NCBI GenBank assembly: GCA_029256485.1
Contig: JAQSXU010000306.1
Location: forward strand, 1-6,330
Source: Clostridiaceae bacterium
GTDB lineage: Bacteria; Bacillota_A; Clostridia; Clostridiales; Clostridiaceae
DNA: 6,330 nucleotides
Reading direction: 5' to 3'
Part shown: positions 2,254 through 6,115 of the stretch, one piece after another
Layout of the letters: the number at the start of each line of letters is the position of its first letter
How positions within the stretch are numbered: position 1 is the stretch's first letter
The notes under the pieces: generated by a model
Database searches by the model: none
What the model was told of the DNA's origin: nothing
What the model saw: the letters and a program-made list of their open reading frames with translations, nothing else
Position numbers and translations under genes: made by a program

Positions 2254-3519
2254 ATGAAATTACTAAAAATCAAAATTAGAGGTTTAAAACTTTTTACAGA
2301 AGAACTCGAAATAGACTTTTTTGCTGAACAACGTGTTGGTCCTGAAAAAAATGAAATGTTATACAAATTGTTTTCTAATATTTATATTAATAATGTTATT
2401 GCTTTAATAGGAATTAATGCGTCAGGGAAAACATCTATTTTAAAGGTTATATCTTTTGTGATTAATATGTTAAATAATGAACCAATCAACAAAATTGTTT
2501 ACAACGATATTTTAAATGGAATAAATTATGAAGATGAAGTGATATTTGAGACATATTTCTATTCAGAAGAAAATTATATAAACAAATTACAAACTGTTGT
2601 GAAAATAGATGACAAATCTCAAGATGGTGAAAATAAATATATAATTAAAGAAGAGAAACTTTGGAGAAAAAGCTTAAGTGCAGTAAAAACTAAAAAAAGC
2701 CTTTTTGAATTTAATAAATTGAATCCAGTTCAAATAAGAAATGCGGATGAAGAATTTTTGATGGAAGATGTTAGTATCATTATTTCTTTAAATAAAAAAC
2801 ATAATTCACACTTTTATATTAGAGATATTATAAACTTGACTAATACAAACCAAATTACTTTTACTAGAGAATTTCCACCTCAATTAATAACTTTTTTAGA
2901 TCCTAGCATTGAGTATTTAAATTTAAAACATGATAATAAAAAATTAGAAATAAGATTAAAATTCAAAGAAAAGGAAGAAATTATTTTATATGATCCAGTG
3001 GAATTGAATAATTACTTATCTTCTGGAACAATAAAGGGAATAAATGTATTTTTAAATGCCATGTTAGCTTTTAATAATGGCGGATATCTGATTGTTGACG
3101 AATTGGAAAATCATTTTAATAGAGAAATTGTTTCAACATTAATCCGACTCTTTATGAATGAAAAAATTAATCATAAAGGTGCAACTATAATATTCTCAAC
3201 ACACTATTCGCAGCTATTAGATGAATTTGAAAGAAGTGACGATATTTATATTGTCAGAAATAAAAGTGGTATAAACGTTGAAAAACTTTCTAAAATATTG
3301 AAGAGAAATGATATTAAAAAAAGTGAAGCTTATCAAAGTGGCTATTTGCAAGGAACTACACCAGCTTATGAATCATATATTGATTTTAAAAAGGAACTAC
3401 ACCAGCTTATGAATCATATATTGATTTTAAAAACGCTATTATTTCTGGCAGAATTGATGAGGTATGATTATGGTGTTGAAAGGATATATATAGCATGTAT
3501 TTGTGAAGGATCAGCTTAA
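2254..3519 (+). CDS. AAA/ABC-type ATPase (AAA_15/AAA_21, OLD-like), 3' end frameshifted by a tandem duplication
   Basis: A 421-residue ATPase of the SMC/ABC-like group found in many phage-defence operons. An N-terminal strand pattern (MKLLKIKIRGLKLF) is followed by Walker A GINASGKT at 53-60, a variable middle (about 80-240), an ABC signature-like YLSSGT at 254-259, Walker B YLIVDELE at 278-285, and an H-loop STH at 315-317, so the nucleotide site is complete. A 41-bp tandem duplication (3350-3431) shifts the frame near residue 380. Without it, the protein would run GTTPAYESYIDFKNAIISG and stop at 3465-3467, giving about 390 residues; the present last 42 residues are out-of-frame sequence. 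The restored stop would overlap an ATG (ATGA at 3464-3467), indicating a lost translationally coupled partner. The ATPase core is intact, but whether the altered protein is active is uncertain. Such ATPases normally act with a nuclease or toxin partner, not seen here. Confidence 0.85.
   Translation: MKLLKIKIRGLKLFTEELEIDFFAEQRVGPEKNEMLYKLFSNIYINNVIALIGINASGKTSILKVISFVINMLNNEPINKIVYNDILNGINYEDEVIFETYFYSEENYINKLQTVVKIDDKSQDGENKYIIKEEKLWRKSLSAVKTKKSLFEFNKLNPVQIRNADEEFLMEDVSIIISLNKKHNSHFYIRDIINLTNTNQITFTREFPPQLITFLDPSIEYLNLKHDNKKLEIRLKFKEKEEIILYDPVELNNYLSSGTIKGINVFLNAMLAFNNGGYLIVDELENHFNREIVSTLIRLFMNEKINHKGATIIFSTHYSQLLDEFERSDDIYIVRNKSGINVEKLSKILKRNDIKKSEAYQSGYLQGTTPAYESYIDFKKELHQLMNHILILKTLLFLAELMRYDYGVERIYIACICEGSA
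3350..3433 (+). repeat. 41-bp tandem duplication inside the ATPase gene
   Basis: Units 3350-3390 and 3391-3431 are identical, and two more bases match beyond the second unit. The length 41 is not a multiple of three. The second unit, read in the ancestral frame, repeats GTTPAYESYIDFK and continues sensibly to a stop at 3467. The A-runs at the unit borders suit replication slippage. Exactness implies it is recent, or an assembly error. Confidence 0.92.
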
Positions 3520-3779: not shown

Positions 3780-3874
3780 TGTTAAAAATAAACATAATAT
3801 GGTATAATATATCTATATTGTTGGAGATTTGAATTATTTACAGAGATAAAAATTTTAATATAATATATAGGGGA
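3780..3874 (+). promoter_or_regulatory. Promoter and ribosome binding site of the small-membrane-protein/NTPase operon
   Basis: TGGTATAAT at 3800-3808 is an extended -10 box with a perfect TATAAT. The -35 position 17 bases upstream (3780-3785, tgttaa) is weak, as is usual for extended -10 promoters. AGGGGA at 3869-3874 lies eight bases before the ATG at 3883. The leader would be about 70 bases. It means the pair is transcribed independently of the ATPase gene. Confidence 0.55.
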
Positions 3875-3882
3875 AGTACGTA

Positions 3883-4074
3883 ATGGAAGTTTTTAATATT
3901 ATTTCGGGTATATGCTCAATTATTGGTTTAGCTGTGACTATATTTGCTACAAGTAAAGTAGTAAAAATAAGTCAGCATATAAGTTCAAAGCAAAATGCAA
4001 TTGAAAAAAATAAAATGAGAGATAATAACACAATTGTGGGAGGAAATTTCAATGGAACACCACATAAGAGATAA
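3883..4074 (+). CDS. Small single-pass membrane protein with a C-terminal motif shared with the next gene
   Basis: A 63-residue protein I do not recognise as a named family. Residues 4-23 (FNIISGICSIIGLAVTIFAT) form one hydrophobic helix, followed by a basic stretch (KVVKISQHISSKQ) that suggests the C-terminus is cytosolic. The tail has the motif NKMRDNNTIVGGN at 43-55, almost the same as residues 8-20 of the downstream NTPase. The start has a strong AGGGGA site and a good promoter. Its last 23 bases overlap the NTPase gene, whose ribosome binding site lies inside it, so the two are translationally coupled. The likely role, by analogy with NLR-effector pairs joined by amyloid-type motifs, is a membrane-damaging effector triggered by the NTPase; this is inference. 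Alternatively it is an anchor that keeps the NTPase at the membrane. Confidence 0.72.
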   Translation: MEVFNIISGICSIIGLAVTIFATSKVVKISQHISSKQNAIEKNKMRDNNTIVGGNFNGTPHKR

Positions 4075-4111
4075 TAAAATGAGGGATAATAATACTTTAA
4101 TTTCCGGTAAT
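4009..4111 (+). repeat. Motif repeated in the two overlapping genes (copies start at 4009 and 4073)
   Basis: Both copies encode NKMRDNNT, then I/L-V/I-G/S-GN: 10 of 13 residues are identical and the rest of that core mostly conservative. The first is the tail of the membrane protein, the second the head of the NTPase, in different reading frames 64 bases apart. The DNA also matches (aataaaatgag-gataata), and a third partial unit (agagataat, encoding IRDN) precedes the second copy, so the motif may have spread by local duplication and been kept by selection. Confidence 0.75.
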
Positions 4112-5983
4112 ATTTATAACATAATAAATAATGAAATAAAGTATTATGAAAGTTCTGATACATCTAAAAAGTACCAATCATCATTTATTATCAAAAAAAT
4201 AAATAAATTAAAAAAATATTTTGTTGAAATTTCACAATATAAAAAGGCTGTAAATGAGTTGGGCAATTCAAACGCTGTAATGTTCATTGGGTGTTCTGGA
4301 ATTGGAAAAACTGATACATCAATTATGGCTGCTAATTATTTTATTGAAAATTATGGTTATAAATTTAGATTTATTGAATCACCTAACGAAAATGATATTC
4401 AGAAGATTTTTGCATTGATAGATCAAAATATTGAAGAAAAAGAAGTTTTAATTTTCGATGATTTTTTAGGAAATATAAAATTAAATAAATCAGAAAGTTA
4501 TTTTTATGAATTAGAAAAAATTTTAAAAAACATTGAATATTGTGATGAGAAAAAATTTATTTTTAATACACGCAAAACTATTTTTCAAGATGCAAAAGTT
4601 TATAGTAAAAAAGTATATAACTTAGTAAATCAGAATTGTAAGATAATAGATTTAGAATATTGGGAGAATATTCAAGACAAGGTGGAAGTATTTCGCAAAT
4701 ACTGTAAGAAAAATAATATTTTTGATAAAATACTAAAATTGATTAATGAAAAAAAGTGGAACAAAAAAATTTGTGAAGATATTATTAATCATCAAAATTT
4801 TACTCCGCTGATTATTAAAACAGCAGCTAAAGAATGTTGCAATGTAGATGTGTTAGAATATCAAAGTATATTTTTTAGATATTTGAATCATCCAGAGGAG
4901 ATTTGGGAAAAAGAATATAAAGCTTTAGATGAATTTTCACAAAAGTACCTAAAGATACTTTATTCTTTGTCAGATAATTTCATAGAACAGGATATAGTTG
5001 ATGAGTGTTATAAGAATTACATAAATAAACAGAATATAGCTATTGATAATTCATTAAATGAAATTCATGAGCATATTGACTCTTTAGTATATTATGATAA
5101 CAATCAAATACAATTTATTCATCCGTCACTAATCGAATATTTAGAAAATAAAATATCTATTTCGGATGAGAACGATATTATAAATACAGCTATTTATTTA
5201 GAACAAGTAGTAAAATTAGATGATAAAAAAGTAGAGGAATTACTTACTATAAAAGAAGGTTCATATCTACCTAGTATTTTTAATTTTAAGGTATTAGCAG
5301 TTACGTATAAATTAGATGATGGAAAACCTATAAAATTTACCAATAATATATTATTGCAATATTTAAAATATTTATATGAATTTAATATTGATGATGAAGA
5401 ACATCAAGAAATAGTTACAGAAGTTTTGAAAAGTGTTTTAGAATACGGGGCATCATTATTTTTTCATTGTTCAGATATTGTTCTAAATGTTCTAAAACTA
5501 AATTATGATTTTAGTGAAATATTAAATAATGATAAGTTTATAATGGAATTATATGAACAATCTAATCCAGATAGTATTTGGATATTGATAGAATTAACAA
5601 TACAAAAAGACGAAAAAGGGATTGATTTTAAAAAACTTGATGATTTTATTCAGGAAAAAATAGAAAGTGCATTAATAGATATTGGTACTAATGTAAAGGA
5701 TTCATGGATACAAGATAATATTGAAAATTATATAGAAGATGAATTCGAATACTACAATAAGGATGATGAATATGATTATTCTGATATAACTCAAGGGGTA
5801 TTAGATAATATGTCAGAGAATTTTGATATAGAATTAGCTAAAGATGCAATTAGGAAAACAATAGAAAAGTATTGTCTATATAATATAGATATTGATAGTC
5901 TTGATGATTTTGAGATAAGTGATTATATATGGGAAATCACTAATGATGCTATTATTGAGTTCGATAATAATAGGGAATGCTAG
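4052..5983 (+). CDS. nSTAND3-type NTPase (NLR-like), probable sensor of a defence pair
   Basis: A 643-residue signal-transducing P-loop NTPase. The ATG at 4052 is preferred over the TTG at 4034 because GGGAGG (4038-4043) precedes it by eight bases. Order: shared motif NKMRDNNTLISGN at 8-20; linker; a Y-V/F-E-I-S-Q-Y-KKAV helix at about 56-66; Walker A GCSGIGKT at 80-87; Walker B VLIFDDFLGNI at 132-142; and FNTRKTIFQDA at 171-181. DDFLG and TTR-type motifs in this order are the signature of nSTAND3 domains. FIHPSLIEYL at 355-364 marks the winged-helix end of the STAND core. Residues 370-643 match nothing I recognise and become very acidic after 550; they probably form the sensor. There is no nuclease, TIR or other effector domain in the protein, so the effector is probably the small membrane protein encoded just upstream, which carries the same motif. 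No clear terminator follows. The NTPase family is a firm call; the defence role is inference. Confidence 0.87.
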   Translation: MEHHIRDNKMRDNNTLISGNIYNIINNEIKYYESSDTSKKYQSSFIIKKINKLKKYFVEISQYKKAVNELGNSNAVMFIGCSGIGKTDTSIMAANYFIENYGYKFRFIESPNENDIQKIFALIDQNIEEKEVLIFDDFLGNIKLNKSESYFYELEKILKNIEYCDEKKFIFNTRKTIFQDAKVYSKKVYNLVNQNCKIIDLEYWENIQDKVEVFRKYCKKNNIFDKILKLINEKKWNKKICEDIINHQNFTPLIIKTAAKECCNVDVLEYQSIFFRYLNHPEEIWEKEYKALDEFSQKYLKILYSLSDNFIEQDIVDECYKNYINKQNIAIDNSLNEIHEHIDSLVYYDNNQIQFIHPSLIEYLENKISISDENDIINTAIYLEQVVKLDDKKVEELLTIKEGSYLPSIFNFKVLAVTYKLDDGKPIKFTNNILLQYLKYLYEFNIDDEEHQEIVTEVLKSVLEYGASLFFHCSDIVLNVLKLNYDFSEILNNDKFIMELYEQSNPDSIWILIELTIQKDEKGIDFKKLDDFIQEKIESALIDIGTNVKDSWIQDNIENYIEDEFEYYNKDDEYDYSDITQGVLDNMSENFDIELAKDAIRKTIEKYCLYNIDIDSLDDFEISDYIWEITNDAIIEFDNNREC

Positions 5984-6016: not shown

Positions 6017-6115
6017 AGATTGCTATGTAATCTGGTAAAGTATATATCTTTCACTACCTCAAGGCATGTGGAAACTTTGGTGAAGCTAGTTAAGAAGTTT
6101 GTAAGTAAACAATAA
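6017..6115 (+). repeat. rlmD 3'-end repeat, copy D (right side of the island)
   Basis: After a stop at 6014-6016 one frame reads KYISFTTSRHVETLVKLVK and ends in TAA at 6113-6115. SRHVETxVK is shared with copy C, and HVETxVK with rlmD. The clearest part is 6059-6085. It has no start codon with a ribosome binding site, so it is a gene-end remnant. Copies A to D enclose every accessory gene in the window. Confidence 0.55.

Follow-up and report, generated by a model that had tools for sequence, protein, structure and literature searches.

The 6,330-nt stretch of DNA analyzed here (the window), which forms positions 1 to 6,330 of contig JAQSXU010000306.1 from a Clostridiaceae bacterium (assembly GCA_029256485.1), carries two overlapping genes, one for a 63-residue membrane protein and one for an nSTAND3 NTPase, whose products share a short motif at their facing ends. 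The two open reading frames (ORFs) overlap by 23 nt in different frames (Table 1), and the NTPase ORF comprises 649 residues if it is started at TTG 4034 instead of ATG 4052. The paired motif had been claimed in a preliminary description of this DNA, and the claim stands: NKMRDNNTIVGGN in the C-tail of the small protein and NKMRDNNTLISGN at the N terminus of the NTPase are identical at 10 of 13 positions and score 65 (BLOSUM62, ungapped). Shuffling the two tails 20,000 times gave at most 48 (at most 58 in a repeat of 20,000 with slightly different tails), and shuffling the full proteins 2,000 times gave at most 52. The copies lie at facing ends as described, at residues 43–55 of the small protein and 8–20 of the NTPase. 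The statement that the small protein ends in the motif holds in that the motif lies in the C-tail, and fails in that the residues FNGTPHKR still follow, such that the motif is not the extreme C terminus. Over the first eight motif codons the two copies differ at three nucleotides, all silent (AGA/AGG, AAC/AAT, and ACA/ACT), which indicates that the match is kept at the protein level.

The assignment of the NTPase to nSTAND3 was right: the match to PF20720 scores 77.4 bits against a cut-off of 27.2, and the match to the PADLOC family PDC-S73 (95.2 bits) spans profile positions 159–714 of 752. K86, previously named as the Walker A lysine, is that residue and is invariant across nine aligned sequences. 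The structure model (mean predicted local distance difference test score, pLDDT, of 82.8) has the order of a NOD-like receptor (NLR), in which helical parts follow the NTPase and the sensor region is C-terminal. Both this STAND/NLR fold, as predicted, and the proposed two-gene sensor/effector architecture are supported. No Sir2 domain was matched in the NTPase at E ≤ 1 (Pfam), in which only 56 residues precede the nSTAND3 domain, and a search of solved structures with the NTPase alignment returned two weak ATPase matches.

The small protein had been described as a single-helix membrane protein, in agreement with the one helix predicted here, which is the sole recognizable part of this candidate effector. 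In the structure model it appears as one helix spanning residues 2–46 (mean pLDDT 61.5). A profile search from five small proteins (reporting limit E ≤ 1; 134 candidates) yielded 12 proteins including the one in the window, the weakest with E = 1.3e-8. These are 55–73 residues long, have Kyte-Doolittle 19-residue means of 1.93–2.39, and are alike in their N-terminal halves, with tails that sort into types. No family was found for the small protein above cut-off in Pfam or NCBIfam, at E ≤ 1 in PADLOC, or at E ≤ 0.001 in PHROGs; there was no match among solved structures by sequence search, among plasmids by DNA or by small protein, or among phage records. In genome samples the small protein was matched in 1 of 291, 4 of 398, 1 of 5, and 1 of 110, from which two of the four were dropped as chance matches and the one of the last sample was dropped as well. 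The rejected matches are L011 (E = 0.005), which contains a stop and, judged by eye, lies in a frame resembling a tRNA synthetase of the opposite strand, L015 (E = 9e-4), which lies inside a 300-residue frame of another protein, and L012 (E = 0.008), which was rejected on score alone.

Table 1. Features of the gene pair, in window coordinates
Feature	Positions	Strand	Basis or remark
Promoter-like TTTACA-16-TATAAT, 5′ of the pair	3837..3864	+	11/12 consensus; weak evidence
Small membrane protein, candidate effector, 63 aa	3883..4074	+	ORF
Hydrophobic stretch VFNIISGICSIIGLAVTIF, residues 3–21, predicted membrane helix	3889..3945	+	Kyte-Doolittle 19-residue mean 2.24
Effector-side motif NKMRDNNTIVGGN, small-protein residues 43–55	4009..4047	+	
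Shine-Dalgarno-like GGGAGG for the NTPase, inside codons of motif VGG	4038..4043	+	8 nt before ATG 4052
nSTAND3 NTPase, candidate sensor, 643 aa from ATG	4052..5983	+	PF20720 E 1.2e-21; PADLOC PDC-S73 E 1.1e-27
Sensor-side motif NKMRDNNTLISGN, NTPase residues 8–20	4073..4111	+	within residues 1–42, model pLDDT < 50
nSTAND3 NTPase domain, residues 57–219	4220..4708	+	Pfam
Walker A GCSGIGKT including K86	4289..4312	+	G80, S82, G83, G85, K86 invariant in 9 sequences
Walker B region IFDDFLG	4451..4471	+	D136, D137, F138, L139, G140 invariant in 9 sequences

Three nSTAND3 pairs have readable DNA, namely the window, locus L001 of Anaerosolibacter carboniphilus, and locus L006, the small protein of which is P0021 of Inediibacterium massiliense; both species are Clostridia of the family Thermotaleaceae. 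The small ORF overlaps the NTPase ORF in all three. The tags of L001, NKMRDGNTVIGGD and NKMRDGNTLISGD, are identical at 11 of 13 positions, and compared with the window both partners change N to G and the final N to D, while in L006 (NKMHDRNIIIGGN and NKMRDDNILISGG) T is changed to I in both partners. Co-variation of the tag with the NTPase N terminus, proposed earlier as a check, is observed in L001, partly in L006, and more strongly in the NB-ARC loci described below, which have another tag. A third copy of the motif was not found in a six-frame pattern scan of these three loci. At 3985–4000 of L001 the NTPase start is apparently ACG (3998), located 8 nt past GGAGG and aligned with the ATG of the window and L006, and the public protein P0002 (the Anaerosolibacter NTPase) starts later, within the motif. 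Two orphans, the small protein P0019 and the NTPase P0005, carry matching 14-residue tags (score 63) and are possibly neighbors; the P0019 tag scores 15–37 against the other six partners.

The same small domain is found with other partners. Viral contigs searched with the small proteins contained loci L008, L025, and L026 as well as the contigs of L021 and L022, the last two having been reached first via the NLR of L008. In all five loci the small ORF overlaps an NLR gene by 23–29 nt; NB-ARC and TPR were identified by Pfam in L008, L021, L025, and L026, and the NLR of L022 was read outside the Pfam scan. The NB-ARC pairs have another common tag, of Y-x-GRD type, as in GNTYNGPYAGRD and DSNFYGPYAGRD of L008. 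In L010 (genome G580, 956–1692), the small protein is encoded directly 5′ of an ABC-3C operon with CTD12 (PF20279, E = 4.7e-25), MC8 (PF20295, E = 1.3e-8), and as next gene an ATPase-like frame that is cut at the locus end and has no Pfam name. The tag match in L010 is weaker (ENTVVGRDM and NNKSAGRDL, score 39), and the small membrane protein is a possible effector for ABC-3C systems. The partner lies directly downstream in all nine contigs (eight distinct loci) with a convincing small protein; the effector of L022 is identical to that of L021, and L004, L005, L009, L013, L014, L017, L020, L023, L024, and L027 were excluded as repeats of other loci. As L008, L010, L025, and L026 were reached only from the small protein, the search did not presuppose a partner. 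The tag thus differs with partner class, which makes the earlier claim of one new motif family too narrow and identifies the small membrane domain as the conserved element.

Several observations concern the setting of the NB-ARC loci. Phage records gave no match to the NB-ARC NLR, and partial NB-ARC/TPR matches were found in 89 plasmid records. The pair of L025 lies near phage replication genes and that of L026 near holin/endolysin genes, a setting that fits defense cargo of phages or prophages. In L008, 5′ of the pair, a CyanoTRADDas_TM protein (4184–4765; PF20712, E = 1.9e-17) adds a second membrane component to the neighborhood of the NLR.

The sorting of tags by class was quantified by scoring the last 30 residues of each effector against the first 40 residues of each partner in the eight distinct loci. 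Same-class cells (26) score 37–66 with a mean of 51, whereas different-class cells (38) score 14–25 with a mean of 20. Over their first 30 residues, the small proteins share 19–26 identical positions within classes and 15–24 between them; these ranges overlap, and the membrane part therefore sorts by partner far less cleanly than the tail. When all assignments of effectors to partners were considered, only the cognate one of 120 reached the cognate total for five loci, and 2 of 720 reached it for six. Chance was rejected as the cause of the matches: the observed score was reached in none of 20,000 shuffles for each of the window, L001, L006, L008, and L021, in none of 5,000 for L025 and L026, and in 1 of 20,000 for L010.

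In terms of what fills the N-terminal position, 6 of the 15 NTPase relatives considered (from the best 7,994 candidates scored) have an N-terminal fused nuclease by Pfam in place of the motif. This nuclease is HNH in P0003, which is 49% identical to the window NTPase and has the domain at residues 7–48, ahead of nSTAND3, and Mrr_cat in P0010, P0011, P0014, P0015, and P0016 (precomputed Pfam). Among six further nSTAND3 loci, L003 included, Mrr_cat is also found at the N terminus in L007 and L016 (Pfam); L002 resembles these two by eye, with nSTAND3 alone named by Pfam, L018 has a long N-terminal part without a Pfam name, and L019 has a helicase-like frame (by eye). The motif occupies the position of the killing domain in several relatives, and some relatives have neither. 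Among sampled genomes, an NTPase relative (E ≤ 1e-20) was present in 3 of 198, 3 of 393, and 1 of 398, the first two samples overlapping in the same three genomes, two of which have full-length relatives; any nSTAND3 was present in 4 of 199. Phage records contained two distant NTPase matches (22–26% identity). Another N/G-rich N-terminal motif (YNIYGGQVNFASDNGKIDAV and NVSGGQVNIASGNAKIDAV) is present in the nSTAND3 relatives P0008 and P0009; a scan of viral contigs revealed no relative of these. Viral contigs likewise gave no match to the queries A8 and A9 or to the CTD12 protein of L010.

With its last Gly-Gly or Gly-Arg codons, the effector tag also encodes the ribosome-binding site (RBS) of the partner in the window, L001, L006, L008, L010, L021, L025, and L026. 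The site is GGAGG 8 nt before the ATG (window and L006) or the ACG (L001), GGGAGG or GGAAGG 10 nt before the ATG in the NB-ARC loci, and GGAAGAG 7 nt before the ATG in L010. This overlap may explain the presence of GG in effectors versus SG in sensors; it can explain neither the sensor-side copies nor the rest of the tag. A direct DNA repeat is also present in the region, its two copies of 51 nt (3981–4031 and 4045–4095) being 71% identical, which raises the alternative that the motif copies arose by local duplication and are kept alike by gene conversion across a spacing of 64 nt. The Shine-Dalgarno sequence would then constrain the effector end, and no signaling would be involved. We consider this improbable. 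The repeat itself, the Shine-Dalgarno overlap with the effector motif, and the use of AGR for both Arg codons of the window but of CGT for both in L001 are in its favor. However, at same-residue positions the codons are identical in 15 of 26 cases within pairs and in 33 of 51 between loci, which, on small numbers, gives no sign of recent copying; the trend is one of diverged synonymous sites alongside matched residues, and gene conversion as the sole cause of the match was rejected for want of a codon-level signal. Moreover, the early nucleotide differences between the window copies leave the residues unchanged, the motif persists on the sensor side though no Shine-Dalgarno sequence is needed there, and the NB-ARC loci match too, with a different tag pair.

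The matching tags suggest a minimal two-part bacterial self-destruct switch. We lean, by a little, toward an NLR-type immune switch of two genes, in which a sensor and a tiny membrane effector are coupled by an exchangeable homotypic motif, a reading to which the sequences point through the paired motif, its conservation, the matched change, and the motif exchange with partner class. The nSTAND3 NTPase would be the cytoplasmic sensor, with its C-terminal helical region meeting the trigger, probably a phage product, and would oligomerize as STAND proteins do. The clustered, otherwise disordered N-terminal motifs would become an ordered assembly, which the C-tail motif of the 63-residue protein, presumably cytoplasmic, would join by like-with-like stacking. 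The membrane helices gathered in this way would then damage the membrane and lead to abortive infection. By analogy with the HET-S/NWD2 and BASS/Bell systems described below, the templating of the motifs may be of a beta or amyloid type, and the helix prediction together with the same analogy makes pore formation or membrane damage by the small protein plausible.

A number of observations weigh against this switch. The tags of L006 match at only 8 of 13 positions, with three of the five mismatches (H/R, R/D, and N/G) at positions matched in the window and L001 pairs, and the L006 NTPase frame has one internal TGA, from which relaxed constraint is possible. The true partner is the top scorer within its class in only four of eight rows; the tags are thus class-specific, and locus specificity is not supported. 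Part of the conservation of GG/GR has another cause in the RBS that it also encodes, which makes GRD alone weaker as evidence in L010. Confidence in the small-protein model is low, and the rarity of the system keeps the sample small. NTPase relatives without the motif or the small ORF, which the preliminary description had named as evidence against itself, were found in part: P0003 has the fused HNH, and L003, the NTPase of which is 35% identical, has neither the motif nor a named N-terminal domain, and no matching small frame was seen within 400 nt on its 5′ side, either among listed ORFs of ≥40 residues or among frames of ≥25 residues close to the gene. P0006, P0007, P0012, and P0013 likewise have neither the motif nor a Pfam-named nuclease (the sequence of P0012 was not read).

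Motif sharing could also be explained without self-assembly if both motifs fit the same groove, whether this belongs to the sensor core or to some further protein. On this view the role of the small protein, instead of that of a co-polymerizing effector, would be to act as a tether at the membrane or as an inhibitor in competition with the sensor N terminus. The models are indeed of low confidence around both motifs, and the helix, as the sole recognizable feature of the small protein, could be an anchor. We nevertheless regard docking as unlikely, as the NB-ARC and nSTAND3 tags differ yet match within class, which homotypic pairing predicts and which under groove mimicry would need a separate groove evolved for each class; a nuclease, moreover, sits in the N-terminal position in some relatives. 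We give little credence to a toxin-antitoxin-like arrangement, in which a constitutively toxic membrane peptide would be held by the NTPase via the motif until infection. It is in keeping with a small single-helix protein that is encoded first and with overlapping genes that look translationally coupled, but related STANDs are triggered activators with fused effectors (Avs5, according to the available portion of PMC12931631, and the fused nucleases) and not inhibitors.

The surroundings of the pair in the window include the promoter-like sequence of Table 1; such sites number 21 in the region against 26.5 expected from shuffles. An AAA_21/AbiLi-like ATPase gene at 2254–3519 (PF13304, E = 1.4e-12; AbiLi, E = 1.1e-36) contains an exact 41-bp tandem duplication (3350–3431) and, as this length is not a multiple of three, the 3′ part of its frame looks shifted. 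The 3′ end (446–463) of an rlmD-like gene at 2–478 is copied exactly over 18 bp at 1428–1445, and a degenerate copy, the frame of which reads RHVETLVKLVKKFVSKQ and then stops, lies at ~6060–6115, as if islands had been inserted at the rlmD 3′ end around the defense genes.

The pair resembles systems in which a signal passes through a shared motif. In bacterial amyloid signaling sequence (BASS)/Bell systems, as far as the accessible text of PMC7889193 and PMC8086366 describes them, the motif is at the NLR N terminus and the effector C terminus; the genes are adjacent or overlapping with the motif at facing ends, as in the window, and several motif families occur on one effector type, as in the small-domain family. 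In the excerpts of PMC9815663, HRAM1 has GND at its end and BASS2 has ARD at its C-terminal end, a lead in that SGN/SGD and GRD seem by sequence to resemble them. The Bell effector is a helical bundle with a membrane helix, whereas the proteins here have 55–73 residues and the window copy is modeled as one helix; no Bell domain was recognized in the small protein, for which no Pfam family lies above cut-off, no Bell profile having been searched by name. Reports of BASS come mainly from filamentous actinobacteria and cyanobacteria, whereas the named hosts of the nSTAND3 pairs here are Clostridia and other pairs lie in viral contigs, and the small protein of L010 pairs with ABC-3C and not with an NLR. 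The fungal-type pairs HET-S/NWD2 and HELLP/PNT1 likewise have copies of a short motif at the receptor N terminus and the C terminus of a membrane-acting executor (PMC7889193, in the part available), as does the pair here. Their executor is a HeLo or HELL domain, and amyloid was shown in those systems, whereas the likeness of the present pair to them is one of geometry. Avs5 and PDC-S73 share with the window NTPase an nSTAND3 domain and a C-terminal helical region, according to the part of PMC12931631 available. Avs5, however, has a Sir2 effector in cis, whereas the window NTPase has a short N-terminal motif and a separate candidate effector, and it leaves positions 1–158 of PDC-S73 unmatched. 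With respect to ABC-3C, L010 has CTD12 and MC8 directly after the small protein, whereas the window pair is without such components.

The open-licence literature searched, with the available portions of PMC8195603 and PMC12881547, yielded no account of a bacterial NLR coupled through a common motif to a small transmembrane effector, and no open-licence paper was found on ABC-3C with a transmembrane effector. The principle is known; what appears to be new is the type of effector, the tags, the hosts, and the connection to ABC-3C. With somewhat less than even confidence, we propose that the membrane domain of ~45 residues is a general killing module of Clostridia and phage-like elements that is plugged by exchangeable, self-recognizing tags into at least three unrelated classes of immune ATPase (nSTAND3, NB-ARC/TPR, and ABC-3C). 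If so, motif-templated, amyloid-type immune signaling would exist outside filamentous bacteria and beyond NLRs, and its effector would be much smaller than a helical-bundle domain. If the tags template as in HET-S, such signaling would extend to Clostridia and viral contigs. The 13-residue tag can be swapped or deleted, which makes the wiring of receptor to executioner testable in bacteria, and an effector of one helix poses the question of the minimum needed to breach a membrane on command.
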